Position numbers and translations under genes: made by a program. From Liolophura sinensis (lineage: Eukaryota > Mollusca > Polyplacophora > Chitonida > Chitonidae), in the NCBI RefSeq assembly GCF_032854445.1, contig NC_088302.1, positions 28,049,080 to 28,113,079 of the forward strand: 64,000 nucleotides of DNA, given 5' to 3'. Positions 341 through 50,787 of this stretch are shown here, piece after piece (positions within the stretch are counted from its first letter, which is position 1; each line of letters begins with the position of its first letter). The notes under the pieces were generated by a model. It made no database searches. It was not told where the DNA came from and worked only from the letters and a program-made list of their open reading frames with translations.

Positions 341-384
341 ATGTTGTGACTAATTATGACTAGGCTGCATGTAGCATTGGGCTG

Positions 385-690
385 AGTAGTGTTGCCATTA
401 ATCCTGAGCTAACAGGTGAGGAGGATAATGCTGCGTAGTGTTGCCATTAATCCAGACTGAGCTAACAGGCGAGGAGGATAACACTGAGTAGTGTTGTCAT
501 TAATCCAGACTGAGCTAACAGGTGAGCAGGATAACACTGAGTAGTGTTGTCATTAATCCAGACTGAGCTAACAGGTGAGCAGGATAACACTGAGTAGTGT
601 TGTCATTAATCCAGACTGAGCTAACAGGCGAGGAGGATAATGGTAGTGTTAGCTCCACACTGAGCTAACAGGTCGTGATCCTGATCATGA
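385..690. repeat. 53-bp minisatellite containing a splice-donor-like word
   Basis: Five to six copies of a 53-bp unit (CATTAATCCAGACTGAGCTA then ACAGGTGAGCAGGATAACAC). Each unit has CAG|GTGAG or the variant CAG|GCGAG. Confidence 0.88.
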
Positions 691-5000: not shown

Positions 5001-6742
5001 ACAAACAACATAAACCCTGATGACTCTGTTCAAAACTTCCATTATTCCTGACTGGTTGTCAGTCCACTAGGGACCTGTCTGACAGTGAGGTTTTTACAAG
5101 ATATTAACGATGAATTTTCATCTGAAAAGTAAACTGTGCTGCCCTGATAAGTTAAAGCTTGGTAATTTTGAAGGTAGGCCCACAAGTATGGTCCCATCTC
5201 AACCATGCCCTCAACACTTCCAAGCTGTCCTTCCACCTCACTGTACCAGTAATCTGTGCCTGGAATCTCAGAGTTTCCCCACTGCAGCCAACGTTACATG
5301 TACATGTACCTATACCTATAAAACAAATCATGTCATATTTTGCTTACTGGCACCAAACAAACATCAAGCGCCCAAAATCTATGTAAACAATGTAGTGATT
5401 AATGTAAACTAAATCTCAAAAGCCCTGTTTGACTTTAAGCGTGCTGCCTAAGCAGGAGTTACATTCACGGAACTGACACCCAACAAGACACTGAACCAGA
5501 AGTGTGTGCCTTACCTACACCGTGTCATGACACCTATCTGACGCTAGCATCAGCAGTCAGAACATTCTTTACAGAGAGTAAAGTAATATTTATACACAGA
5601 TGCAAACATAAACAAAAGTACATTTACTTTACATCATGTTATAATAAATGAATCATGTTATGTGAAGGTCCAATGTATTAATAACCTGTGATAATCTTGT
5701 ACATATATAGGAATAACTGTCAGCCAAATAAACATAATATCATTGTTTTGAATTGAACAATTACACAATAACAATACCTCTGAGTGGAAAGAACTCAGAA
5801 AAACTTGACTAACTTTTGAAAGTGCACATATGTACAGATGTGTACTTTGTGATTAATTCGAGGGACCCATCTGTGATAGCGTTGTATCAAAGCAGACATT
5901 GCAGTGAAGAATGTTATCATTGTGAATGAGCGAGAGAGGTGTATGTACATGTAGGTATGAGAATGCGTATGATACATGTATGTTAATTCATTTCCAGCAA
6001 CCCAAATTTGACATCTGTACCCAATGAGCTGGCCAAGCTGAAGGACTGTGACATGTTAGATTTGGAAGGCTGTTCCATACCTGCATCTGTGATTCCACCT
6101 AAACTTATCGCAGGTAATTTAATGTATGAACTCCTTCACTGTCCTGGCAAAGTAATAAAGAAGATAATGCAAATGCAAACATAAACACACAGATTGAAGA
6201 ACAGATAAACAGTTATCCGCTATACTTACAGTAAACTGTATGCTGGAAATTAAAGGTAAATGATGACTGCATGTATAATATCACCATTGTAAGTTTTTCT
6301 AAACAAAGAACGTCTTTGTGATGTTTGTTAAGAGAGTGAGGAATCTTTTATCAGTTTAATGGGATCACAAATTGGCATCCAACAACATTTACAATAATTA
6401 AAATGCAGTAAAATATCAGTAACTATATAGATGAAAAATGTATATAAAATATAGATGTTAATATGAATGATATTTCATGTCATCAAGTCAAAATTCAGAA
6501 TTTGCAAAGAAATTCTTAATTTTGGGGGGGGGGGGGGTACCTTCTCAAGTATATTATTTGGAATATCATTTAGGTTTTTGGACTACGTGTATACATTTAT
6601 GTGAACTTTCCATTAAGTATCTTAAAAATTTTGTCTTGTAGAAGCCTCGTACAAAGCAGGAGGCCTGCTGGCCTTCCTTAGGCTGAAGCTACGAGAATGT
6701 GATAAGTGCAACAGACTCAAATTGATGGTCTTAGGCAAAGAG
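2007..6742 (+). CDS. LRRK1: LRRK1 exons 1-4: leucine-rich repeats and linker into ROC
   Basis: Exons 2007-2145, 2763-2966, 5998-6113 and 6642-6742. LRR signatures are visible: [14 protein letters not shown] and [12 protein letters not shown] in the first exon, [15 protein letters not shown] and [10 protein letters not shown] in the second, and [18 protein letters not shown] with MLDLEGCSI in the third. The fourth exon reads [20 protein letters not shown], then LKLMVLGKE, which is the beta-1 strand and first half of the ROC P-loop. The exon phases (2, 2, 1, 0) chain without a break. The P-loop is split between exons 4 and 5. In LRRK proteins the LRR block packs against ROC-COR-kinase. Confidence 0.88.
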
Positions 6743-9700
6743 GTGAGTGCAAAAGAATTAAACTGATGATCCATGGTAAAGAGGTGAGTGCAATAGCCTT
6801 TAACTGATTGGTCCTCTGTAAAGAGGTGAGTGCAACAGACTTAGACCGATGGTCCCAGGTAAAGAAGTGAGTGCAACAACCTGTAATGGATTGGTCCTCG
6901 GTAAAGAGGTGAGTGCAACAGACTTAAACTGATGGTCCCAGGTAAAGAAGTGAGAGCAACGGCCTTTAACTGATTGGTCCATGGTAAAGAGGTGAGTGCA
7001 ACAGACTTAAACTGATGGTCTCAGGTAAAGGAATGAGTGCTACAGCCTTTAACCGATTGGTCCTTGGTAAAGAGCTGAGTGCAACAGACTTAACTGATGG
7101 TCCCAGGTAAAGAAGTGAGTGTAACAGACTTACACTGATGGTCCCAGGTAAAGCAGTGAGTGCAACAGACTTTAACTGATGATCCTGGTTAAAGAGATGA
7201 GAGCTACAGACTTTGACTGATTGGTCGTTGTTAAAGAGGTGAGTGAAACAGACTTAAACTGAGGGCCTCGGTGAAGATGTGACTTCAGGCGACTTAAACT
7301 CTTGTCCAAGGTAAAGAGATGAGAGCAACAGACTTAGACTGATGGTTGTAGGTAAAGAGGTGAGTGCAACAGCCTTTAACTGATTGGTCTTTGTTAAAGA
7401 GGTGAGTGTGACAGACTTTGACTGATTGGTCTTTGTTAAATAGGTGAGTGTGACAGCCTTTGACTGATTGGTCTTTGTTAAAGAGGTGAGTGCAACAGAC
7501 TTAAACTGATGGTTTCAGGTAAAGGAGTGAGTTCAGCCGGCTTTAACTCATGTCCAAGAGCAACAGTCTTAGACTGATGGTCATAGGTAAAGAGGTGAGT
7601 GCAACAGATTCAGACTGATAAACCTAGATAAAGAGGACAGTGTAGCAGGCTTTAAATGATAATCTTATTGAAAGAGGTGTGTGCAAGAGGTTTAAAAGAT
7701 GATAGGTGAAGGGGTTGGTACAGCAGACCTAAACTGATGGTCCTAGGTCTCTTCATGGAACATGGGATTGACATCAAGCAACACATTATGGATATCCTCA
7801 ACAACACAGGATTGATATCCTCAAGCAACACAGGATTGATATCTTCAAGCAACACTGCATTGATATCCTCAAGCAACCCAGGATTGATATCCTCAAGCAA
7901 CAGAAGATTGATATCCTCAAGCAACGCAGGATTGATATCCTCAAGCAACACAGGATTGACATAGTCAAGCAACAGTGGATTTATATTCTCATCTAACACA
8001 GCATTGTCGCCAGTGACCCAGAAACCTCTGAGAAATAGATCCTGATTTCAGAGACTAAAGAATTGTGCCCATTCATGTGATACATACACTATAGGTGAAG
8101 TGATACATACACTATAGGTGAAGTGATACATACACTATAGGTGAAGTGATACATACACTATAGGTTTTTCATGACATTAACATTGTACATGTATTTACAG
8201 AACAGCTTCATGCACTTTAATAAAGCTTTATTAAAGCAGATACTTTAATATGTAGGCCTACGTGTACCTACCATTGATTCAAAAAATCAGAAATCAATCC
8301 TTACTGGCAATTATCTTAAAAATGGTTTGAAAATTTTGTTTGTTTGTGTTGTGACCTAGGTTTTACCTCATATTTATACGTATATCAGGAATTATATTTG
8401 TCTTCATTCATTTAAGCACTGTACTGTAGCCTGCAGTTATTACTTTAATCAGTACTAAAGAGTTTAAATTATAATCACTGTATAAATGTTTCAGAGACGC
8501 GGGAAGACCGCCCTAGTGAACGCGTTGATGGGAACTCACGATAGTTCAGGAAAAAATCCCAACCAGATTGTGATTCGTGAGTGGAAGTTAGCCCACAGCA
8601 GCTCTTGGTGGAGGAGGAGAGATGTAGGAGCCTCTATTTATTTATTTATTTATTTGATTGGTGTTTTACGCCATACTCAAGAATATTTCACTTATACGAC
8701 GGTTGCTCACAGACCTTCTCACTTACGGCCGGAGAGGAAGCTAACATGAGTAGGAGCTTCTAACTTGTCTTTTGAAGAATTCTGCCTTTAATAAGAGTAG
8801 TTGTACTTAGCATCTAATAAAATTAGATGCTAATTTGTGTTGTAAAAATGCCCGTTTCTTTTTCAACTCTTAAGAATGTATAACAATGATGTTTTCCTAA
8901 TGAAGTTGTTATCTTGTGAAGAGTGTGAAATACCGCCTCATATAAGTCATTGATGTACATCTATTGGTAGGTTAAATTTATTAATTTTTAGTGAAATCCG
9001 GTGACTGGTAAAGACCGGGATTATCCATTGGACTATCTAGTTAGCCTTGCAGGTATAGATTACATAGGGGGCAGGTCTTGGTCTAATAATTCAAACCCAA
9101 ACTTGGACTTGAATTTGCAGATGCCCCTATTGTCACTGTTTGGGAAGCCTTGGTAACAATAAGTGGTTGGATGTGCTTGTGTGGCCTTGCATAGTTCAAA
9201 GTTCGTTGAAGACCTCTTGTCCTCCACCAATTAGGTGTGCATATCTGTACATCACATGTGGGAAAGTTTGTCAAGGGTCAGTGGTTTAAACCAGGTACTC
9301 TTGAGTCCCTATACGCACAAAACTGATTGCTGTTATATAAGTGAAAACTCTTTGAACAACAATTAGATAAATAGGTGCAAAAACAAATAGTTTAATGTAC
9401 ATGTATGTGATGTATGTAGCTGTTTGTAAGATGTGTGGGGATTTCCCTGAGATTTCCCAACTTTGTGACATACACCTTGAGGTTTGTGGCTGTTTGTAGA
9501 TGCCTGTGGTGACATTGTCTCTGTGGGTATTTCCCTGGGGCTTCCCAACTGTCTGACATACACCTTAATGTATGTGGCTGTTTGTAGATGGCTGTAGTGA
9601 CATTGTCTGTGTGGGGATTTCCTTGGGCTTCCCAACTGTCTGACATACACCTTAATGTATGTGGCTGTTTGTAGATGCCTGTAGCGACATTGTGTGGGGA

Positions 9701-12700
9701 TTTCCCTGAGACTTCCCAACTCTCAGACATACACCTTGAGGTTTGTGGCTGTTTGTAGATGCCTGTAGTGACATTGTCTGTGTGGGGATTTCCCTGGGGC
9801 TTCCCAACTCTCTGACATACACCTTGAGGTTTTGTGGCTGTTTGTAGATGCCTGTAGTGACATTGTCTGTGTGGGGATTTCCCTGGGGCTTCCCAACTCT
9901 CTGACATACACATTGAGGTTTGTGGCTGTTTGTAGATGCCTGTGGTGACATTTTCTGTGTGGGATTTCCCTGGGGCTTCTCAACTGTCTGACATACACCA
10001 GTGTTTCTTCACGGAGAACACGCTCTACCTGCTGGTGTGGGATGCCCAGGACGGCATCGAGGGGGTAAAGGATCTGGACAAATGGTTCAGGAACATACAG
10101 GTGAATATATCGTGTTAACATAAACACGCCCTTATTGGCTCAGCTAGTAAAGCCTTGGTGGCAATGGCTGTTCTCCAGGCACTTCATATTCCTCCACTCA
10201 TAAATCTCGTAACCAAAACTTCTTTAGTATGCCATTAGACACCAGTTAAACAGAATCATGCACAGGTTTATCCTTTATTTGAATTTCCCTTTTAGGAAGA
10301 GTTCTCCTTTTTTGACCAGTACAATGTAGTTTGTAATCTATACTGAAAATGTTCTGTATTTATGTTATCAGTCTCACGCGGCGAGTTGCACCGTCCTCAT
10401 TGTAGCCACTCATCTAGATCATTTACACGAGGAAGACAATCAGCTGGCTACTTACATAGGGGAAATGACTGAGGCTATCCGTGGCCGATACGGCAGGAGG
10501 CGTTGTCCCCGCCTGGGCCCCATTCACTATGTGTGCTGTTTGCCTGGGGTACCTGTAGGGATTACAGAACTACAGGAGGCAATTTATGCCACTGCCTTGA
10601 GCTTGAAAAATCAAGATTCGAGAGGTTTTGTTACAGAAGACTTGATTGGGCGACAGGTATGTTAAAAAAAACATTTATTTATGCCACTGCCTTGAGCTTG
10701 AAAAATCAAGATTCAAGAGGTTTTGTTTCAGGAGACTTGATTGGGCGACAGGTGCGTTAAAAAAAAACATTTATTTATGCCACTGCCTTGAGCTTGAAAA
10801 ATCAAGATTCGAGAGGTTTTGTTACAGAAGACTTGATTGGGCGACAGGTACGTTAAAAAAAAAACATTTGAGCTAGTGTATTGTACATGCAAGTTGAAAG
10901 ATCAGTGTCAGTTTAATAATCTAGGAGTAATAGTGCATTACTTTCATTATAGCTGCATGGAGGTAGAACTGAAGGATTTTCATTTTACATGCATTTATCA
11001 ATAACTACTAATGAAGATGCAAATTTCCAACAATAAAATTGACTACTGCAAAATTCAGTGGAATCGCAGTGAAACGCACAAATTTTAGTTTATGCAAACA
11101 CATTTCTCCTGAACCCTGTAAGTATCCTTCAAGTGAACTAGTTTTTTGCATCTTTTTTTTTTCGGTGTTATTTAGATGCCAAAAAGTTATCAGTGTCTCC
11201 AGCAACTGCTTCAGAAAGAGGCTAAAAGACGCCATGAGACAATGGAACCACCAGTTCTTGTTCAGAATGAATTTGATGATATCATCAAACAGATTCCTAA
11301 CCATGATCTTGACACAGATGAAGAAATGACCTTAGGTAAATCTATAGCAGTTTGCATTTCTGATAACTGCATGAAATTTTTTGGTATGTTCATATTTGTT
11401 TTCCCAAATGTAATTCTCATAAGCTAAAATATAGAATGACTACAGCATGGGAAGCAAACGCAGAGCAGTGACAACAGTGTGATGGTTGTCAGATGGTCAC
11501 ATATAGCCAGTGAAGTACGGTACTCTTCATTTACCTCTTATCTCCATAACTACTGGGCAAATTTCATAAATCTTGTAAATGAACTTACTGGTCACCAAAA
11601 GGGGAGTAAATTTAATGAAGCTTCATTCATGGGCCCACTTGTTGGTGCCCTAATTCAGAATTGATGGCATTCACTGCAACTGACTCTTGATCATTTTCCT
11701 TAGGTCACCGTTCATTTTTGATTTATTAGTTTTTACAAACAGTAAAATATTCAATTAACCTGCTAAACCACAAAATTTTGCAAACTGTACATCTGTATGT
11801 AGTCTGCGAACCCATCCAGTTATATGATGAGTTTTGGAGATTTGGCTTTTTGGTGAGGACGTTGTGTAGGCTTTTTCCATGTTGTATAGTTCCAGCTGGT
11901 AGATTTCTTCATGGGCTTTTTCATTGCTCTACTTGTACATGTGGCCATTAGATTTCTTCACATTCTCTTTCATTGCTTTACTTCAAGCTGTTAGATTTCT
12001 TCACAAGCATTTTCATTCCTGCACTTCATGCTGTGAGATTCCTTCAAGAGCTCTTTCATTGCTGTACTTCATGTTGTTAGATTTCGTCACAAGCTGTTTT
12101 ATTACTCTTCTTGTAGCTGTTAGATCCCTTCAAGAGCTCTTTCTTTGCTGTACTTCATGTTGTTAGATTTCGTCACAAGCTGTTTTATTACTCTTCTTGT
12201 AGCTGTTTTTGATTTGTTCACAGATCTTTCATTGCTGCACTTTGTGCTGTTAGATTTCTTCACAGCTCTTTCTTTCATTGCTGTACTTCATGTTGTTAGA
12301 TTTCGTCACAAGCTGTTTTATTACTCTGTTTTATCCATTATATTTCTTCACAAGCTCTTTTATTGCTGCAGTTCAGACTGTTAGATTTTTTCACAAACCG
12401 TTTTATTACTCTCCTTGTATCCATTAGATTTCTTTCTGAGCTCTTTCATTGCTGCACTTTATGCTGTTAGATTTCTTCACAAACCATTTTATTACTGTCT
12501 TTGTATCCTTTAGATTTCTTTATAAGCTCTTTAATTGCTGCACTTTATGCCATTAGATTTCTTCACCAACTGTTTTATTACTCTCCTTGTACCCCTTAGA
12601 TTTCTTTCCAAGCTCTTTAATTTGCTGCACTTTATGCCGTTAGATTTCTTCACAGGCTGTTTTATTACTCTCCTTGTAGCTGTTAGATTTCTCCATGAGC

Positions 12701-15700
12701 TGGGTGATCTGCTTCACTTCAATGATCAGCTGAAAGGACTGAACAGCTTGTACTTTCTGGACCCAGTCTGGTTATGTAACCTTCTCTCACAAGTTGTTGT
12801 AAGTGAGGTGAGTTCAAATTCTTACCTTCTGCTTTATGACATACAGAACACACTGTCACACATTTCTGATTAATAAATAAATTACATACTGTAAATGAAT
12901 CTTTATTACCTTACATTATACAGTATAGCAGCAATAAATTTCACGTCAGTGAGTGAATTGGTGCAGCAACATACATGAATTAAGTACATCATTTTGTACC
13001 TCTCAGATGGCAAATAAACAATGATTTCCAGTTCATAGTAGTTTTTCCATTGTGCCAAAATCTTGATAATTTTTATCACGTGTCAGTAGATTTTCAGATG
13101 AAAAATATCTGCATAGTATATAGTGTCATCGACTTTCACAGTATACTGCTTTTATTAGCGTTAAACTGAATGTGTACCGCAATGATCATATTCTTTCATT
13201 GGAGCAATGATTGTTTTGTTTCTGATGAAAATTGTTTTAGAAGCTAAATATTGTTCTCTGGAAGTGAAGTTAATATTCAAAATCAGCACAGCAGATTATA
13301 GCTTAAAAAATACATGTATGTTAATGAGTTAATGCAGAAAGTATTTAACTAATTAAATCCCATGCATTGTTTTGCTTTGAAGAAAGCCCAGAAGTACATC
13401 CATAATGGCATAATACAGAGAGAGGACATGAAGTATTTGTTTGATGAAAGCCGATTTCCTCACGTTCACATGGACAAGTACATCCAACTGCTGGAGCGCT
13501 TTGAAATTACACTCATGTTGGATGAAGAAAAGTAAGGCTGACGAGCTGTATTTTCTCTATGTATCTACAGCTACATGTATGTCTACATGTATGTATACTT
13601 GGGCTTTTACGTCGTACTTGAAATTCTTGTGTCATATGACAAACAAGGAGTCATTAGGTGTGTGTACATGTTTCCCTTGCTCTTATAGCAGGGTGAGTTC
13701 ATGCCGCCAAAGTGCTGGCGCCACTGAAGTATCATGCCAAGGACACCCGACATAACACCCCTTAGTCAGATTATGCTGACACCAGGCCAAATAATCCTCT
13801 TTCCTGGTTCTAACTGCTCAGTGCTGAGTAGCAAGGCAGCAACAAGCAGGCTACCATTCTTTAATTTGACCGGACCCAGGTTTGATCCCCCACCTCCTAG
13901 CTGTCTTTGATTTATTTATTTATTTGATTGGCGTTTTACACCATACTCGAGAATATTTCACTTATACGACGGAGGCCACATTATGGTGGGTGGAAACCGG
14001 GCAGAGCCCAGGGGGAAACCCGCAACCATCCGCAGGTTGCTGCAGACCTTCCCACGTACGGCCGGAGAGGAAGCCAGCATGAGCTGGACTTGAACTCACA
14101 GCGACCACATTGGTGATCCTGACTTTGAGGCGGATGCTATAATAATAAGGCTACCGAGATAATCCATGTATTTTCTAAGAAGCCTTTGGAAGTTCTGCAT
14201 TTTCGTAAAACACAAAACCGTATAAATACAAATCCCAGCAATACATATGTGGCATGGCATGGTATCATTTTGCTTAGTTGAGATAGTCACAATGCAATGT
14301 ATAACTCTTATGGAACTGATTGCATTAGATTGAGTATTAGGCTATGCAGTGTTAACTTGGTTTTATTTTTGTGTATTTACAGACTTCTTATACCAAGTAA
14401 AGTGTCCCAGGAGAAATTTGGCAGTGTACAACTCTCCCATAATCTCGGTGAAAAAATCTACCGTTTTTACAAAATGGAGTTCATTCCATCAGGATTCATG
14501 AGTCGACTGATTTCCAAAGTCCTGGGTAGCATTCCACGATTCACTGGCCCTACATGGAGAGTGACGCAAGAGTCAGGCTCAAGGGTCAAAAACTTGGCAT
14601 CGATGAATAGAGGGTCGTTTCAACAGAGCTTGTGAGTGATTGTTGTGTTGATCAATCTTGAGGAGTTACTGATTGATGTGTAATGCTATACTCAACAGTT
14701 TTACACTACAGTATGGCTCATTTTTGTGGCTGGGTCGTCTAGGGTATACATCCCACCTGGCAAGTTAGTCGAGAACTGTTCAGAGCGTGATGTAAGATGC
14801 ACCCCATATTGATGGAAGTCAGGGTCTACTGTCTTCAACAAATGTAAACCATTCAAATTGCCATACCATTGACTACTTTATTGTTGTCATTTCCCATACA
14901 GTGAGAGAGAGAATCTACAAATGGTTATTTTTAAAGGAGAAGAAAACCTAAAAACATGACCCTATGGGCTGAAAAGAGCACATATTTTTTCTATCTGGTG
15001 ATGCCTCTTGCATCATTTTACGATTTTTCCTCCTCATGCACGTAAAGCTTGAAAACGCAAAGCTGACATAAATGGCTGAGTCCAACGCCTCCTCCGTCTT
15101 TAACACCCTGTAATTTATGCTGGGGGTGTGTTGCCTCTCAGCCAGTGAGGGTCGTTAAAACTGCCGGCTTGTTCATGTAAACTCGGAACCCACATCCAAC
15201 ATAATGGTTTCCCGATCGGAAAAACTAACTGTATTGTTCGCTACCTTCTGGGAAGAAGAGTCTACCAGAATTGTACGAACTGCGCTTTGGTGGTTTCCGA
15301 CAACAATTCTCCTCCTAACACAGAAGACTTCAGGACAAAATGGAGTTGCCCACTGCAGGTTTTGGCGCTGACTTTATTTATAATTTATCAACTTGAGGTA
15401 CATATTAGAATTTTTTATGGCATGCACCTGCGATGAAATGCATACTTTTTTTCAATGGTATTTGATTTATATCAAAATTTTCTTCAAACAGTTCTTCCTT
15501 TAAGAACATTCAAATGTGGGAACATTTCAGCTGCTGTTGATATTATTGGTTGTTGAACCCATCAAGCAGTTTCTGACACGACAGTTTCTAATTAATTATG
15601 ATACCAGTTATATTTAAGATTATAAAATGTTTCATTTTAAAAGTCAGTTACTGATTATGTTATTGGTAAAAGATGTGTTGATACCTAGCCTCTCATACCT

Positions 15701-21700: not shown

Positions 21701-24700
21701 ATTTTATGGGCACAGGTCACAAATGTTCCTGTAGTGATATTTCTGTGGGCAAAGATATGCTACATAGATTGGTCGGTTTGCTTTATGGTGCTGGCATAAC
21801 CTTCAATATAAATCATGTTAAAGATGAAGGAATTTTTAACCACTTTAGCCACTAGTTAAGAATTTCTAGCTACTTTCACAAAATTTCTGTGTTCTAGCAC
21901 CTTAAGGCAATGTGATTTTCCTACAAAATTAGTTTTTGTGAAAGTGGGCCCTGAAATCTCTACCAATAATATATGTAGCCTTGTTTCTGAGTGAGTGAGT
22001 GAGTGTTTGGGGTTTAAAGTCGAACTTAACAATTTTTCAGTCATATGATGACGAAGAATCCTTAGACTGCATGAAATGTGCCTCCTTGTTGCAGGACGGA
22101 TTTCCTCCACTCTTTTATCTAGTGCTGTTTCACTAAGAGGACTTACCGAAGACAAGTAAGCCCCGAGCCATTACACTGATAAGGGTCAACCAGGCTTTGC
22201 ACTATCCCCTTCATGCTGAACGCCAAGCGAGGAAGTTACAACTTCCTCTTTTAAGGTCTTAAGTGTGCCTTGTTTCTGCTGCATATACATGTGTAATATA
22301 TGAAACGTAGTGTTTTAAAGTGAAGAGAATGAAGATGGCTACAAATGCTGACTGTTTTTATCATGTTCAAACAGGCCAAGGACTACAGTTTCGATACAAG
22401 AATGCCATTTTTTGAGGCTCTTATGGAGAAGTGCTGGCAGCAGGACCCCATGTCTCGACCTAACACAACAGCCATCCTCACTCAGATGAAAGATTCTGCA
22501 TTTCTCTGTCTGGAAAAAGAAATCCACAAATCAACCGACCAGAAGCATGGGAGTTTAGACTGCATTTTCCTCTACTGCTCAGAGGTAGGCCAAAATGACA
22601 TATTTTCACTTGAAATTATCATGCTTCTGGGTGACAGGTGATAATTTTGTGGCTATCTCAAGGTGCTGGATGCAAAATATTATATCGGGCTTCCCCAAAA
22701 ATTTTTCTCAATAACCAAATGTATAGGTGAAGAAAGTGCCTGTGAAGGTCATTGATGCCCAGAGGTAAAGCATGGTGAGATGTGCACATCTTAATTAGAA
22801 TGGGCACATTTATATGTAATTGTTTTTTATTTCCAGTAAATATTTTTTTTGGCTTCATATTGGCATGCATGTATTATATTTATTTATCATTTTACTTTTG
22901 ACTTTTATCATTTTAATGAATTCAATGGGGAAAAATCTGGAATGTTTTCTCAGCTATAGATTGTAATGGTATTTTCTTCTGATGCTTTTCCTTCCCTTAA
23001 AATGTATATACATACATGTATATGCCACCAATTCCAAATAGAATTTCATCTAGTCTTCCAATCTCCTTCATGCTCAGTGTTTGTCTCCCCCCTACAGGTG
23101 AAGAACTGTGACTTGGCATGGCTGTGGGAGGGTTGGGGGACGTGCAGAAAATATCATATTGTGGACGTCAGCCATGGTCAGTATGTGGTGCCGAGTGAAC
23201 CAGCAGCAGGGCCTCAAGTCACTTGTGCCACCAAGGTCAACGATTACATATGGGTTGGTAACAAGGTAGGACGCCATGCTATTTAATGTTTTGTACTTTA
23301 ATTAATTTTCGCTCTTCTCTCTGTCACCAAACCTGTCTGGCATTCCTGTCGCCTCATTTTAGCTTTTAAATGAAATTTTCCCCCGTGATATATATGCATG
23401 TACATCCCGAAGTCACATGAACACAATCTGGATAAAGACATAGACACGAACATAAACCTTTTATTTAAGTTTCATTTGAGTGCATTTTGACGCAGTAATA
23501 CCTTAATAAAGAGCAAATTTCATAATGAGTGGACGAGGTTACCAAGGTTTTGTCTGATGGCAGACAGGGAGGTGAAAGGTTGACTGCTCAAGCCTGTAGC
23601 GCCCTCTGAGTTGCCATGGCTTTTAGCATTGCAGCCTTTTTGAGTGGAAAAAAAGGGCAGTATGAGAGTTTGATATGGGCCAAAGCAAAGTTACATGTAC
23701 ACGTAAGTGTTAAAAGATCATTGACCATTAAATGTACTTAACCGTGGTGATTCAGCTATAATGTTGCTATCTAATATTGGACAGTTTTAAAATCTTCGGC
23801 ATGTCCTTAAGAGAACATAATTATTAGTGCATGGAACTAGCTTGTATGGTAAACATATCTGACATCAGCCTCCAATATTGATTGGCTTTGGTGTGAGTGA
23901 TGCCTCAGTGTGATGATCAACCAACGAGGGCTCAGCAGGGTATTCAATTTAATGAGCATATTACATGTATGACAAAAAAAAAACAATTGATGTGTGTAAA
24001 ATATCAGATTTTACAAATAAAATAAAGTCCACTTTTGTTGTGTGATACCTGGTAGGAAATATTTATTTTATCTTTCTGCTGATCAAATTAGAATTTATTT
24101 TATAGTGGTTTTTATTTCCATCCTTATATTTCAATCATACACTGTTACTGCCTAATTATAAAGCAAGTCAACAGGCCCATTAACTTGTTGCCACACTTAT
24201 AATATCTTATATACCACACATATCTAATGTCCACAATGCATGTAATAAAATGGACAGCACGTGTAATAGTATTGACTTGGCACGTAATAATATTCACAGA
24301 ACATGTAGTCATATGCACAGTAATAATGTCATTATGCACAGTAGTAATAATATGCACAGTACCAATCCATGCACAACTTGACTGAGAACGTGGTGAGACC
24401 AACAGAGCTCATGGACATCCATGTTGGTCAACAGTAAGCCTTAGGTAGAACTGTTATGCAAATTACCTACTCTTTTAACTGTTCTTCTTATTTTCTTCAA
24501 TTCTTTGAAAAAAATTGTCTTTAAATATTTTTCAGTGTATTTTTTTTTATCTGTTAAAGCTGATGTCAAGGGGAATGGTCAACTATTACAGATTGTATAG
24601 CATTGTTACCAATGTACAGTGTTTCATTCACGCCCTCAGGTAGCCATGTCCGTCGTACCAGAGGTATTTCATACTTCAGGGTTTCACAGGATACTTTCAT

Positions 24701-27700
24701 TTGAAGGATACCAGCCACTTTTTGTTCTCTCTTATGATCATAAACGTTGCTTTCACAAGTTTCTAAACTGTAAGTCTTTTGCAAAACACGTAAGGGGTCT
24801 CTCGGTGCAGCATACATAGACCCCAGAAAAGGACGCATTTTTGTGGGGAAAATCAAGCCTTTTGTGTAGCTGAATGATTCATTGTACATTGGATCACTGT
24901 CCCAAATGTGGGTCTCATTTTCCTGGAAAAAGCTAATATCAAGAAAGGGCCATTCCCATGGAATTCCTTTAATGGGCCTTGATAAACTGGAATAAAATTT
25001 CCATCGATGCTTCTGTAATGTACATAAGTAGAAATGCGGTTTGATGAGTTCCACGGCATGGTAGAGTTTTCTTGACTGTGTCATGTTGATGAGGACGTCA
25101 ATGTCGTCATCCCAGGGAACCATACCATGGTGACGGTAAGACCCAAGTAAAGAACCAGCATAGAGAATGTAGGTAATGCCGTGGACACTGCAGATTTTGT
25201 GGAAGTTTTCCATAAGTTCTCGAAATATCCTTTTCTGTGTGCTGGAGAGAACTGGCAGAAAGTGGTTATGAATCAACCCAGGGTAGTTCTCTTTGTACTT
25301 CCTGATCGTTCTGGAGTTTAAACTGAGAAATTGTAGAAAGACTTGGAATTTCCGTCTGCTTGTAACTGATTTTGGAGTTGCAGAAAGTGCCACTGTCTTT
25401 CTCCATGTCGTTATTGCTTGAATGTTCTGTTGGCTTTCAGCATCTCTAGTTAAATTACCAGTTGATACTGGGCAAGTTTTATTCGCCGTTGTTGTCACAA
25501 ACGTCACCCCAGTGGTACTGGTCTTCAGTAACCAAACTGTCATTAGGATCCCGTACAGTATACAGATTATCTGAAGTTTCACCGGTGTAGACAGGAAACG
25601 CTTGGAACTTTGACTTGCTGATGTGATACCAAACATTTTGTAAAGAATATTGTACAGCTTCTATATCTGATGTTTTGCGAACCAACAATTCCCTTGTTGA
25701 TATTCCTGTATGAGCAAATTTCACCAGCGGCCCTGAGAACATCAAAAAGACAAAGAGAAGGTTTGAGAAAGCTAGTATGTGTCAAAGTTTTCAGACTTCT
25801 ACCTGCCTGGCAACCTGGCCCATGTTGTTTAAGCTACAATCATACTATCCTTATTGACCTACTTTGCAACAAACATGATCATATAAAACATGAAACAAGT
25901 TCAGATATTAATTTTGATCAAGTGAATAAATGAAAACATGATTTGGTACATCCTGTGTTTGCTTTACCACTGTAGGAAAAAATGAATTTACGTGCCAAAT
26001 AAGGATGCAGGCCAGTCACTGACTCTTTGCTCTATAAGTACATGTACGAACAACAAAACAGTGGTCATACAGGCATTTGCCATTTACCTGTGCCAACAAG
26101 TTTACTTACTCAAAACGCTGCTTCACAGCCTAATAAGTCCAAAACCAGAATGTGTTGAGTTTCACAATTTATATATGCTGTGCACATCTTACATGCTGTA
26201 ATTTCAGGTTAATATCAGCCATACTTCCTACTATAGTTCAGTATTGTTCATTTCTCTATACCTTCCCATCTTGTTATTCTTAGTCAACTTGTAAAATTGA
26301 AATATCTCAGTGGTAAAGGTATTAACACCAAACTTTGGGGTCTTAATGAGGAACATATGAAGCAACTTTTGACATTTTGTGCTGTTTTGAAAGTCATATG
26401 ATTTGGCCGCCATTTTGAATTTTATTGATTATGCTAAAAAAATCTTCTTCTCCAAAACGGCTAAGCCTATCGAGATAAACTTTTCGTGTACAGTTTTAAG
26501 GTGAATCACCCTATCCATATTGTAAAAAACTTTCGGTTTGGTATGCAAATAAAGCCAAAACTGACCAATGAACTTGGCCCAAAAGTAGGCCAATTTTTAA
26601 AACTGTTTAAAATCATTTTACACTCAAGTGTCTGGTGCCCTCAATTTCAAAACTACAAATCTGCAAGAATTATTTTTGTACTTTGTGTTGTTTTCATGTT
26701 ATGACCCAAAAAACCAACATAAATTTGACAAAACCATCCTATGTAAATAACACGGGAGCTTTGTGCTAGACTGCATGAAACCATTGGCTGTAGTTTACCC
26801 TTGGAATGGTCATCAGCTGTGCAGCAATGCATTCTTTCTTTTGATCTCCTATCAGCAGAAGATCAAAGCCGCCTATGCTCTATGCTAGTTCTCAGTATTT
26901 GGCCAATTGTAAATGATGCCTGGCCATCTAGGGTTCATATCCAGTACATTCCTTTCTATTTTTTCTGGGGTTTTTGCATGTTTTTTCCCATTATCATGAA
27001 ATTTATAGACATCAAGCTACCAGAAGCGTTAAAAATCTAGAGCGTGGACCTCGACAACACTGTTGGATAACAACTTTAATTTTATTTTGGAATTTTAGAT
27101 GGTAATGAAAAATCATTTGCCATTCCCATATTTCACCTATAATATGGATGGATAAGATTTTATTACTAAAAAAGATAAGGACTACACATATATATTGCAG
27201 ATTTATTTATTTATTTATTTGATTGGTGTTTTACGCCGTACTCAAGAATATTTCACTTATACGACGGCAGCCAGCATTATGGTGGGAGGAAACAGGGCAC
27301 AGCCCGGGGGAAAACCACGACCATCCGCAGGATGCTGCAGACCTTCCCACTTACAACCGGAGAGGAAGCTAGCATGAGCTGGATTTGAACTCATAGCGAC
27401 CGCATTGGTGAGAGGCTCCTGGGTCACTACACTGCGCTAGTGCGCTAACCGACTGAGCCAAGGAGGCCCCTATATTGCAGATTTAATAGAACATTGCACA
27501 AAGCTAATGAAAAGGAGATGCATTTAAAGCCATGTATAGAATATATGCCAAAGCAAATCTTGAAATATTGGTAGCATTTTTTAGTTAAGAGAACAGAATG
27601 TGTTGCCTTCGTATCTTTAGAATTAGTAGGGTAATTGTAAATGTATTGTGCTGGTTACGTCCTGCTATACCCTCTGTAATTACATTAATTATAACATGCT

Positions 27701-36963: not shown

Positions 36964-39900
36964 AATTAAATATCATGTCTGGGTCATTCAATAAGCGTTC
37001 ATAGAAACTGGTAGGTTTTGGAACACATTTTCTAGTACTGTTCATGCCATAGCGGTTTATCACCAGGGGCAGTTTCCCGGGCTTGCCGTCGTCCTCAGCT
37101 GGTTGTATTCGAATAGCATTTCGGGAAGCCATGGATGGATCTTCGTCAAAGTAGTTGTAGGGCAACAGGAAGAACTGGAGATGCCCGCCAGGCGTTGGGG
37201 TCACCGGAAGGTCCTCTGTGTGGGGTATGTGGTGAACACCCAATGTCACCCATGCTACAAGGTCCTGGAAATATAGCATGTTCGTGTAAACCCAAACAGT
37301 ATTGGCCGTATGATATGTAAATAAAGAAACGCCTTCTCAACCTTGAGTTACAGTGGTATCCCATGGAAGCGTTACCTGGTGAACTACCGTGGTATCCCAT
37401 GGACCCGTTACCTGGTGAACTACCGTGGTCTCCCACATATCTGTTGTGATATCCTCTGCAGGGCGTCAGACACCAATCAAAAAACTAAACAAACCCAATC
37501 TCTGTTTTATGGATGATCACAATATTCATGTTCACTAAATAACTAGAAACGTTATCAATCAGTTTAAAAAATGTAACTACATGTATCAAAGTTTTACGAC
37601 ACTGTAGACGAGTTTAACCATCCCAAAATTAGGAACGAGCAGACTACATGTGCTTTCGTTGATTGGGCAACCCTATAATATTTCCCAGGGCCATCGATTT
37701 TCCACAATGTCCAGGGCTTCGTTGGGAGTGTCGCGAACTTACACTTAGATGTAATTTTCCTTGGAACGTAACCCACGTACAATGTACAACACGTCCATTT
37801 ATCTGAGGATAAATAGAGATTTTAATGTCACGATGGCTGTTCTTGTAGCGGGATTACAACAAAACACGCTACTCTCTAGTTAAATGGCAACAAACAAACC
37901 AAATAATCTTACCTCGTCTACTATGTTTTCGTCGTCATCGAGGAAATTTTGGAAGTTGTTCACCGGATCGTAACTGTCCCATATAGCATACACAGAGCTA
38001 CTTTGAACCTCAGTTTGTCTGAATTTCGTCACGGCCATCTGATAACGAGACCAGGGTATGGAGGGTTCGTGTCCTTTGCCCTCTGGAAGTAGTTGCTTCG
38101 ACATACCGTTTATGGCGATTCTGTAAGCCCGAGAAACTCCTTGCTTAGTTTTGCGCTTTTCGTTGTGAAACAGGAGATATTTAGGGGTGCTGAAGTTGAA
38201 TTTGTAGGCAGCCTGTATCTCCGTGTGATGAAGAGTTCGCTTAAATTTAAGTTGATTGTAGACGGTGACATCTGGTAACGAGGACCAATCCCCGTTAGGA
38301 GTCTCATCCACGCTTATGTCCAAAGTTTCAAATCTGTTTGATGTTCCAAAAATGTCCATGTCCACCTTGAAATTGAACATATGATGGTGAATATTGCCCA
38401 AGAGATTTTTGTGTATCTGGAACCCGAACTGTCTCTCGTTCGGAGAGTACGCACTGGCCAGGATATACCCAGTTGCCATGACCTTGACTTCGACGACCCC
38501 ATTCTGATGAAATATGTAGTCGAATATGTAATCATAATTTCCAACAGTGAGCACCGTCCTTAGAACAAGAACGTCGTCCATCAGTCCCTCGTAGAAGTGG
38601 CCCTCGTATCCTGAAAAGGAATGATGGCGACGTAAAGGATTTCCCGTCTCTAGTTCAAAGAGACACAGGGCGTTGTCATATGTGATTGGTGCATCCGACC
38701 CATCGAATAGATGTGTCGCCGGAAGAAACGTAGCGTGACCAGGGCAGTCGGCTTCTGGGATGAGAATCTTTGAGAGGGTACCTATCATGGAAGCACTGTC
38801 GACAATGTCACTAAAACGACTGGCGGGGCCGTATCCAGAATAGAATACTGCGATTTCCTGTAAGCTGATTTCATATGCTATCCGTTGGTGTTTATACCGT
38901 ACATCAAACAGCATTGGCCCGCTGTTGGTGGACATCCTGTAATTGAAGGACCAACCCATGTACTTGATGCGCTGCCCTGAGATGGAGTATCGTTTCCCAT
39001 CGGGTTCTACCTGGAAAGGACGTCTTTGTTGTTTTTTAGGGAACGGGTCACCACGCAGGTTTAAGGTAGAAAATAAATTCTTGTCCACTTTGGGGAATGT
39101 GAAGTGGAGTTTTTCAACCTTTCCTGACCTATACGCATCCACAAGGTCGCCAAGACTGTTGAATACCTTTTGGTTGTACCACACTTTCTCAATTCGAAAG
39201 TTCTCCCTATGAACACCGTCTAAGTTGACCAAAATTTGAAAGTCTAGGGGATGAAGAGTCATGAAGTTCACGGCATGACTAAACCGAATCCAGAATTTTC
39301 TGACCACCTCTCCCGAGAGTGAAGTGGACACAGGACCAGCTGAATATGTCACACATTTCGAGCCGCAATCGCGCAGTTTGGCTCCGAAACTTTCAACAAT
39401 GATATCTTCTGCTTTGTCAAAAATCTCTGGAAATATGTGGATGTTGATGAGCGCTATATCTGTCCCTGACAAGGGTCTGTAAGCAAAAGGAATAGGGTTT
39501 TTACGGCTACCTTTGTAGTCAATCAGATCATGGGTACTTGGTTTGGGCATTGGTCCCACTCTGTACTCCTGAATCAGCGGCGTAGGCAAATCTCCCCGGA
39601 AAACAATCACCTTTGCCCAACGCTGTGGTTTTCTGCCAGCATTATCCAGGTGCTGTAAAACTAGTGACTTAGTCGGTGGAAGCAATTCGATGGAGTAGAT
39701 GTAACTGGATGATACGATGACTTTGTTGATATCAACCAGATTTAAGTCAGATTGAGATTTCAGGTAAGCTCTAGTGTTTTGCAACTCCTGCTTTGTAAGG
39801 TCAGCAAATACAGGCGGGTCCTCTGGCACGTTGAAGTCTATGCTTTCATGATAGGTGTCACACGTCGAGTCAGAATGAATTTCCACAGGCCCCGGATTTC

Positions 39901-40015
39901 TGGCGCTAGAGACTACTATGAGAGCTACGAGCAAAATTGCAGCAAAAAGCCCCAAAGCAATGCAACCTTCCTTCCAATACCCACGCCATCTTCGAGGATA
40001 CGACTCTTCCAACAT
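36962..40015 (-). CDS. Copper-containing primary amine oxidase (AOC family), two exons
   Basis: Exons 40015-37913 and 37264-36962 join in phase 0 (..IVDE + DLVAWV..) to give 801 residues, close to vertebrate AOC3. A short cytoplasmic tail and one membrane span (about residues 18-37) suggest a type II surface enzyme. Catalytic features: the topaquinone precursor Tyr494 in VGNYDYIFDY; candidate catalytic base Asp406 in SDIVDSASMIG; copper ligands His543 and His545 in GNIHHHMF; third ligand His in GVHHIPHTEDLP of exon 2. The enzyme oxidatively deaminates primary amines to aldehyde, H2O2 and ammonia. Donor (GAG|GTAAGA) and acceptor (TTTCCAG|GAC) are clear. Paralogue-level naming (AOC1/2/3) is not possible. 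Confidence 0.95.
37265..37912 (-). other. Amine oxidase intron with a short tandem repeat
   Basis: Intron of 648 nt. At about 37340-37440 there are nearly three copies of a 36-bp unit (GAACTACCGTGGTATCCCAT core). No coding sequence or other element seen. Confidence 0.7.
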
Positions 40016-40518
40016 GGTAATTATAACAATAAACAGGTTATCCTGGGATATTTAGCACGGCGTTAATACATGCACTTCTACATGTCCGAATCCCTTTGCC
40101 AAGAGAACATGCTCACTTCCGTGATGCGGTTTTGAACACCAGTGATTGCACAAAAGATTAGATCCATGCAGGTTTTGTCACCAGCGTCCGCGTATACATG
40201 TGCCAAATTATCTTGTTTCTGTATCGGAAAAGCGAAAATGACAATGTGAACTGAAAAAAAGGCTTTTAATTAATACAACGACTCCAAAAAACACCTGTCG
40301 GGCTAGTTTAAGTCTGAAATCGATCGTCATGTGTATAAATCCATCCCACTGTTTAATATATAACAGGTGACATGACCATATTAGTGTATATAGCAGATGA
40401 AAAGAATGAAAGGGTTTTACTGACAAAAGAGCGATTTTTCCGGTTTTATGGCCTCTTTGAGTTCATAATAGTGAAATAAGCTGTAATCACATCGGGGAGG
40501 GTCTCTTGTCTTTTTTTC

Positions 40519-48873: not shown

Positions 48874-50166
48874 TTATAGCTCATCTCTGGTTTCTAAGAT
48901 TTCCGCTTCCTCATCGAAAGCGTCTGGATTCTCATCATACTCCTCCTCAAGATCTTTTTCTATTTCATTTAACAAAGTTTCTAGACGCAACAAAATATCC
49001 CTAGCATTTTCCCATATTTCTTTGTCAGCATCATTAAGCTCCTGTTTTGTTAAGGCGGTGTCTTTGTTTAAATCTAGAAGTTTAAATATCTGGAGAAGCA
49101 AATCTTTATAACCAACCCCAGCGTGCGATTCGTCAGGTTCATCTTGCCCCAGAAACTGCTCCATGAATTTTTTTTCTGTTATCTCAGAATGGATCCCTAT
49201 CATCTGAAGGATATGATCCTTCAATGATTCCTCACTGTTCAGCGCAGCTCCAAAACCAATGTAGTTGACTTTATCCAAGGTCAAATCGTAGTCACATTTT
49301 TGTGGGCATAAGCTTGAGTCTATGTCTGCCGTTTTGTGATGGTCCCACCAAATGTTGACGGCTAGGTTACTGTTGTAAGAGCGTACCTGGTGTATCCAGC
49401 GGTATGGGATGTAGAGACAGTCTCCTGCAGTCATGTTAACATATACAAACTCTACTTCAGCCAGGCCTGGGTACTTTGTGTAATCAACAGCGTCAACATC
49501 AACGTCAGAGTAAGAGCCTTCAGGATGATCCATGTCAACTTTGTCACCATAAAGCAAAGGATCTATCATCACAAATTCCTTATCCCCACGAATGAGACAG
49601 TTTATGTTCTCCACTGCATCTGTGTGAACAACAGATTTCGTACCTCCACTGCTAAACCACATGAGAGCGTCTACCACCGCACCATTAACAACAGACTCGC
49701 ACTGTGCAGGACATGGAAACACCATGTCAGGCCTTAGGGCTCGAGGAACACTGTTGACCATGTACTGATCAGTATCATTGTAGATCTTTACAAACTGTCT
49801 CAGTGTCATAAACGATGTTGGATTTGTGCGATTCTCTTTCTTTCTAGACTCGATCAGAACATCCTCGGCATCGAGTTCCTGAAGGCTGGTGAAATAGTCA
49901 TCTGTCCACTGATGAAAGGCTCTTGACAGTTTAGCTGCGCCTGTCATTTTCAGTGGACGAAGAACAGAAACATAATTGTGAAAAAACTCTTGCGCGGACG
50001 GGAATCCTTCAACCTCGTCCATTAGCTTGCTTGGTCGTCCAGTCCCAAACTTTTGCAAGTGACCTGGCTCCAGGGTCAAATCTTTGGATATTTTTTCACC
50101 ATTTGTGCAGTAAATATACACAGCGAACAACGTTATAACCAGACTGCTGCTGACTTCAAACGACAT
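48874..50166 (-). CDS. Secreted/ER-luminal JmjC-domain protein with EF-hand and C-terminal RDEL
   Basis: Intronless frame of 430 residues. Residues 1-23 look like a signal peptide (hydrophobic SSLVITLFAVYIYC). The JmjC (cupin) core carries the Fe(II) triad His181, Asp183 (SVVHTDAVENINCLI) and His259 (GDCLYIPYRWIHQVRS), typical of 2-oxoglutarate-dependent hydroxylases. An EF-hand-like loop DLNKDTALTKQE lies near residue 360, followed by an acidic helix. The protein ends RDEL, a KDEL-receptor retrieval signal, so it should reside in the ER lumen. N-x-S/T sites and paired cysteines agree. Related small JmjC proteins are protein hydroxylases or demethylases; the ER one in humans is JMJD8. Substrate is unknown. 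Start chosen because the signal peptide begins there; the gene is head-to-head with KHDC4. Confidence 0.9.
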   Translation of the reverse strand: MSFEVSSSLVITLFAVYIYCTNGEKISKDLTLEPGHLQKFGTGRPSKLMDEVEGFPSAQEFFHNYVSVLRPLKMTGAAKLSRAFHQWTDDYFTSLQELDAEDVLIESRKKENRTNPTSFMTLRQFVKIYNDTDQYMVNSVPRALRPDMVFPCPAQCESVVNGAVVDALMWFSSGGTKSVVHTDAVENINCLIRGDKEFVMIDPLLYGDKVDMDHPEGSYSDVDVDAVDYTKYPGLAEVEFVYVNMTAGDCLYIPYRWIHQVRSYNSNLAVNIWWDHHKTADIDSSLCPQKCDYDLTLDKVNYIGFGAALNSEESLKDHILQMIGIHSEITEKKFMEQFLGQDEPDESHAGVGYKDLLLQIFKLLDLNKDTALTKQELNDADKEIWENARDILLRLETLLNEIEKDLEEEYDENPDAFDEEAEILETRDEL

Positions 50167-50787
50167 CCTGATTGCGACAAGGCAATTTCCAAAAATATTT
50201 CGCTAACTATAAAAGCTGTCGTTGTGATAGACTCTAGTGTATGCCAGCTGTCTGCGCTACGCCGGTGTTAGACGCTTATCTTCTACATGTACCTTTCAGA
50301 ACTGGAACAGTAAGTAAGCACTCATCCTTGTTGACGTGTCAACTATAACCTCTTTGATAGTGTTGGATGTTTATTTGTAAAAAAGGACATCCTGCTAGTC
50401 TCCCATTTTGCACAAGCCAACTGGAGAACGACTTGAAATACAACCCTCCATGACCTAACAACCCTATGTAGTTCCTTCTTCCGGGTTAATATGGACTCGT
50501 CTAAGGTAGTGGGGGTGCAAGAAGCTCCGATTTACTACTCGTGTGACAGGCAAACCACAGTGGATAAAAAATCCGTCACTAACCTTCCAGGTATAGGGTG
50601 AATATTTGATTTCTTAGTGTTTAGAACATTGTCGATTTGAAGTGCGTATTCTTTTATAGCAATTCCGGCCCGCGAATACCCCCACCACAGAACATGTGCT
50701 TCTGCCGTAAATCGACAGAATTCAATGAGATGATGTCGCAAACGGGTCCAATATCAGAATGTGACGTCATGACGGTCGTGCTAAGAT
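50167..50787. promoter_or_regulatory. Divergent promoter region between the JmjC gene and KHDC4
   Basis: The start codons of the two genes are 621 bp apart and point away from each other, so both promoters must lie here or overlap it. No TATA box is evident in either direction; the region is less AT-rich than its flanks near both ends. A full CRE palindrome is close to the KHDC4 start. Confidence 0.6.
50762..50769. promoter_or_regulatory. CRE palindrome TGACGTCA upstream of KHDC4
   Basis: Perfect 8-bp CREB/ATF site 18 bp upstream of the predicted KHDC4 ATG (50788). In animal promoters such sites usually sit within 200 bp of the transcription start, so the 5' UTR may be very short or the site lies in it. 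Confidence 0.6.

Follow-up and report, generated by a model that had tools for sequence, protein, structure and literature searches.

The window, a stretch of 64,000 nucleotides of the Liolophura sinensis genome (NC_088302.1), harbours the LRRK1 gene, whose spliced segment matched human LRRK1 (8e04) with an E-value of 3.3e-65 and LRRK2 with one of 3.8e-56, and presented the Roc and COR-A domains. The exon model, built from splice scores and reading phase with splice weight tables written from general knowledge, comprised 24 exons, 23 introns and 46 junctions; it starts upstream of the window, and exons are very likely missing from it in the last 9.6-kb intron and perhaps elsewhere. Introns are numbered here after the model exon that precedes them, introns 9, 10, 12 and 13 being introns 4, 5, 7 and 8 of the original prediction. 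Moreover, open frames for a copper amine oxidase (37883-40051), a LicD-like protein (24569-25660) and a cupin/JmjC-like protein (48877-50202, minus strand) were found in the window.

Coordinates in the window of the LRRK1 exons and tandem arrays around the four junctions
Feature	Position	Strand	Evidence
Model exon 9, end of LRR/start of Roc	6642-6742	+	exon model, human LRRK1 collinearity
Donor-side array, intron 9, 41/83-bp unit	6705-7548	+	TRF and copy alignment
Second array of intron 9, wholly intronic, 24-bp unit	7774-8006	+	TRF
Third array of intron 9, wholly intronic, 23-bp unit, 3.9 copies, 100% match	8077-8165	+	TRF
Model exon 10, Roc P-loop region	8495-8623	+	exon model, homology, domain match
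Acceptor-side array, intron 10, 88-bp unit	9432-9999	+	TRF and copy alignment
Model exon 11, Roc domain	9936-10100	+	exon model, homology, domain match
Model exon 12, end of Roc	10372-10656	+	exon model, homology, domain match
Donor-side array, intron 12, 96-bp unit, 3 copies	10582-10869	+	TRF and copy alignment
Model exon 13, start of COR-A	11176-11335	+	exon model, homology, domain match
Acceptor-side degenerate array, intron 13, 43/86/172-bp unit	11948-12692	+	TRF and copy alignment
Model exon 14, COR-A	12680-12807	+	exon model, homology

Tandem arrays across four LRRK1 splice junctions

Arrays were detected with TRF, and their overlap with exons was read against the LRRK1 exon model. Both the TRF calls and the copy scores of the exon edges bore out the original observation of four introns with junction arrays, two at donors (6742/6743 and 10656/10657) and two at acceptors (9935/9936 and 12679/12680). 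The exon overlap amounted to 38, 64, 75 and 13 bp for the arrays in introns 9, 10, 12 and 13, respectively. When the 50-bp exon edges were aligned to the same strand of their own introns (up to 1,500 bp searched), scores of 29, 41, 50 and 18 were obtained, while the reverse-complement controls gave 11, 8, 7 and 8; when sampled exon edges were aligned to foreign intron flanks of 615 bp, 10 of 3,520 alignments reached a score of at least 18. The four units were unrelated to one another, with a best pairwise score of 10. Furthermore, the start of the intron-9 array (window 6700-7000), the one array searched in this way, matched only its own array in the genome, in a search that skips common words; an introner-like dispersed element would instead recur with a similar unit at many unrelated loci.

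In intron 9, the last 38 bp of the exon form part of the first unit, which is followed by 22 further intronic copies, 17 of them with GT and 9 matching the strength of the authentic donor, and decayed copies run on to about position 7748. The copies in intron 10 consist of the acceptor and 64 bp of exon; AG was found at authentic strength in all five intronic copies passing the length filter, and a sixth, shorter copy had AG with a lower score. The intron-12 unit joins 75 bp of exon to the donor and the start of the intron, both intronic copies having GT. Moreover, a short ATTT is common to both ends of this duplicated tract, which in this one case may reflect slippage or microhomology-mediated duplication. 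Finally, the intron-13 array enters the exon by 13 bp according to TRF or by 22 bp according to a profile match reaching 12701, and AG was present in only 5 of 12 site-covering copies, compared to 7.8 expected; under a more permissive filter, 17 copies remained, 5 of them having AG. The acceptor of model exon 14 (12680) was placed by hand on homology, which favours it over a second in-frame candidate inside the array, 12656, favoured by splice scoring.

The predicted protein was collinear with human LRRK1 through the four array junctions (residues 72, 115, 265 and 318) and showed no decoy-type insertion; a 2-residue gap in the human chain lies near residue 108 of the alignment. Given this collinearity, the exon-proximal splice sites look authentic and, as far as protein homology can indicate, are probably those used at the arrays.

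Two adjoining intronic arrays with units of 41 and 53 bp were found in the intron after model exon 5, one running from L001 position 8676 to window position 343 and the other spanning window positions 382-640. A donor-like CAGGTGAGG lies within the 53-bp unit. The same intron has, about 120 bp in, a 24-bp near-copy of the last part of model exon 5 (score 16), a possible fifth LRRK1 case.

Junction arrays in kinesin, myosin and kinase genes

The genome searched comprised 609,464,459 bases in 632 contigs, where eight matches to the molluscan hemocyanin domain PF14830 agreed with a mollusc host. A sample of 187 exons in 143 regions (245,887 bp) was assembled from exon matches to three Pfam families. 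Among the stop-free rows, 88 of 90 were taken for kinesin and all 62 for myosin, while the kinase list contributed 37 of its 138 rows, chosen as stop-free partial-domain matches. Matches reading through a stop were excluded, and all loci were chosen before any array in them was inspected. Tyrosine phosphatase matches were left out because their list was dominated by clustered genes: among the matches listed, contigs C7, C15 and C3 presented clusters of similar-scoring domains tens of kilobases apart.

A total of 352 domain-internal junctions were considered, 345 with a splice site found and 7 set at the end of the match. TRF arrays crossed 14 of them by computation; these and a further 15 arrays, whose starts lie 0-60 bp past the junction in the intron, were checked by eye against the reading frame. 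A spanning case at L003 was rejected, the true acceptor falling, by the kinesin reading frame, 24 bp into the match, and a weak array at L141 (2.4 copies, 78%), from which no copy was recovered by alignment, was not counted. After this checking, 12 junctions (3.4%) were spanned by arrays, seven at donors and five at acceptors, in 11 of 88 gene groups (loci L065, L004, L085, L068, L122, L052, L053, L010, L058, L059, L138 and L037). A gene bootstrap on the 14 uncorrected junctions gave 1.9-6.1% of junctions. Arrays with a period of at least 10 bp occupied 24,999 of the 245,887 sampled bases, approximately 10%.

Kinesin, myosin and kinase genes thus present the same pattern as LRRK1, which, together with the unrelated units, supports the earlier idea of independent events sharing one logic. 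A pattern special to one gene finds no support, since the 4 of 46 junctions in LRRK1 were not significantly above the sample (Fisher P-value of 0.14 against 14/352 before hand checking; binomial P-value of 0.07 at a rate of 12/352), and an LRRK1-specific cause is likewise unsupported. Moreover, the exon part of the unit was 5-72 bp long in the sample and 13-75 bp in LRRK1; arrays were originally described as beginning exactly at the junction, but they start inside the exon instead, by 5-75 bp.

Alignment of the sampled exon edges, with a score of at least 16, gave matches in 12 of 352 own flanks, compared to 17 of 3,520 foreign flanks and none of 352 reverse complements. The 12 matches corresponded to eight verified arrays, two from an exon pair at L010, one at L028 and one at L133. 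In the remaining four verified arrays, the stretch shared with the exon is too short for the alignment to reach the score. The L010 pair, not counted as a case of the pattern, consists of two similar myosin exons in tandem, which match residues 118-152 and 121-152 of the myosin head and are probably mutually exclusive; about 1 kb downstream of them, a further exon has a donor array of 31 bp. Additionally, at coordinates 798-1000 of L065, the end of a myosin exon was found duplicated together with its donor over 104 bp; on inspection, the coding frame stays open in the second copy and an AG stands just ahead of it, so that this copy might serve as an alternative exon or be on the way to a new intron.

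Array edges and decoy splice sites

Exon-facing array edges were more frequent near junctions, with 34 per 160 bp (from -60 to +100) compared to 51 per 500 bp at 100-600 bp away, L141 being omitted. This represents a density ratio of 2.1, with a P-value of 9e-4 that treats edges as independent, and a gene bootstrap on uncorrected junctions gave 1.5-3.1. For the exon side alone, the counts were 11 vs. 51 (ratio of 1.9, P-value of 0.044, edges again treated as independent). By side and before corrections, acceptors had 18 edges near and 31 far, and donors 17 near and 20 far. The G+C content was 40.7% in arrays, 37.1% in the non-array flank and 34-37% in the first 100 bp of introns, and does not explain the peak. 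One SINE family was sparser near exons (1.4% vs. 3-4%), which accounts for only a little of it. The measured ratio is an overestimate, since transposons are thinner near exons and neighbouring exons were left unmasked in the far zone. Overall, the anticipated excess of arrays at junctions over intronic positions fell between confirmation and refutation: edges were about twice as dense as 100-600 bp away, a significant but modest effect. A SINE-like dispersed repeat (e.g. window 8642-8757 and 13911-14125), scarcer within 100 bp of exons, had 19 profile matches in the window and 45 in the sample, one copy beginning about 18 bp past the donor of the LRRK1 intron with the 88-bp array.

The peak bears on the possibility that exon edges are hot spots, where a process coupled to transcription or splicing (R-loops, pausing, break repair) would duplicate DNA preferentially. 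The roughly 2-fold enrichment, at acceptors and donors alike and not attributable to G+C, speaks for this explanation; yet the peak extends broadly from -60 to +100, the position of the junction within the unit varies, the ratio is 1.9 (P-value of 0.044) when only the exon side is counted, and the true ratio is lower than that measured. We thus regard such a process as unlikely, although it is the best placed of the alternatives. It is similarly doubtful that exon edges are true amplification hot spots in the fuller sense, with about 1 in 30 junctions having full-strength duplicate sites and the edge itself evolving as a member of a minisatellite.

Decoy sites were counted in 16 arrays (the 12 sampled and the four of LRRK1), after dropping copies aligned over <60% of the query. 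The GT or AG was kept in 125 of 143 site-covering intronic copies, while 117.3 would be predicted from flank identity, with copies within an array not being independent. Furthermore, 78 of the 143 scored above the authentic site or no more than 0.5 bit below it. Decoys are thus not purged, nor is there clear selection on them. Where the two kinds of identity were measurable, the copy at the exon edge resembled the intronic copies, in most arrays, about as much as the latter resembled one another, for example with identities (exon-edge vs. intronic; among intronic) of 0.77 and 0.75, 0.89 and 0.90, and 0.97 and 0.97. The exceptions were L004 (0.82 and 0.95) and intron 13 (0.70 and 0.76).

These counts provided no evidence for the selection of decoy sites that had been raised as a possible cause. 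Arrays retained because extra donors or acceptors help or regulate splicing, as decoys or as redundant sites, might account for the many strong copies and the frequent core dinucleotides. However, retention lay near the prediction from flank identity, site strengths scatter, most AGs are gone from the intron-13 array and LRRK1 is not enriched, so that a splicing function appears improbable.

A still weaker case can be made for the introns themselves having arisen when an exon segment containing AGGT was duplicated in tandem. This refers to the Rogers model of intron gain from AG/GT proto-splice sites, which PMC3087553 discusses in connection with mirages (splice-junction minisatellites described in amphioxus), and in which, as in the chiton arrays, exon sequence is tandemly duplicated along with a splice signal. 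Nevertheless, the model requires exon-derived copies at both intron ends, and in four of four LRRK1 introns they occurred at one end only, the opposite ends having no exon copy (scores of 8-10, like the reverse-complement controls), which makes intron gain very improbable. Finally, an assembly artefact, for which no support was found in the arrays examined, is the least credible source, as the copies are diverged (mean identity of 0.75 among intron-9 copies), the same arrangement was seen at 12 junctions of the sample and the assembly was made, according to PMC11068029, from HiFi reads averaging 8.3 kb.

Relation to amphioxus mirages and a probable origin

The original prediction knew of no named process behind this pattern, but one had already been given a name: in the amphioxus Adh3 and globin genes, tandem repeats across exon-intron boundaries have been called mirages, according to passages of PMC3087553. 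There, mirages occur at either boundary, with AG or GT in many but not all copies and with apparently normal splicing. Lancelet mirages are also described for the PGBD5 and troponin C genes (PMC3902484). Like these, the chiton arrays have boundary-spanning units of varied length in several unrelated genes (PMC3087553, PMC3902484). Such units were found at 4 of 46 LRRK1 junctions and 12 of 352 sampled ones, and at both kinds of boundary, with two donors and two acceptors in LRRK1 and seven and five in the sample. The AG or GT was likewise present in many but not all copies (125 of 143 in the 16 arrays), so that the arrays agreed with mirages in every structural feature compared. The protein homology of chiton LRRK1 fits the exon-proximal sites. 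On the other hand, the chiton arrays differ in their host, in having a sampled junction frequency and in reaching up to about 22 intronic copies per array. Length instability between haplotypes or in somatic tissue is reported for amphioxus mirages; the chiton arrays come from one assembly.

Human segmental duplications also present internal tandem repeats at exon-intron boundaries, as described in a portion of PMC2812944, and share with the chiton arrays a minisatellite expansion touching the boundary. However, the human repeats lie in recent gene paralogs and are linked there to novel introns, whereas the chiton arrays lie in ordinary genes with an apparently unchanged frame.

Considering the above, the chiton arrays are probably mirages, that is, random tandem duplications straddling junctions and tolerated because the exon-proximal sites win. 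A local tandem duplication would happen to straddle a splice junction and found a minisatellite, the founding copy consisting of the exon edge and its donor or acceptor. The duplicate would sit on the intron side while the exon-proximal site is still used, leaving the mRNA unchanged and the duplicate, presumably nearly neutral, free both to decay and to grow through slippage or unequal exchange. Exon definition is the established reason for the exon-proximal site to win, and would apply to these arrays; under it, the exon-proximal sites may be the only ones used. Moreover, in a genome so rich in such arrays, a few percent of junctions would be struck by chance, and the freely varying exon share of the unit is expected if breakpoints ignore the junction. 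Against founding by chance alone stands the edge peak near junctions (ratio of 2.1), since pure chance predicts none.

No report of mirages in a mollusc or in any other non-lancelet was found, judging by titles in the open-licence literature, so that mirages in a mollusc and a sampled junction rate are probably new. The likeness between exon-edge and intronic copies in several arrays raises the question of conversion between the array and the coding edge. Furthermore, the arrays can be seen as natural experiments on splice-site choice, with near-identical donors or acceptors in a row, among which the exon-proximal one must win. Finally, the occurrence of mirages at about 3% of the sampled mollusc junctions suggests that they originate wherever intronic minisatellites abound.
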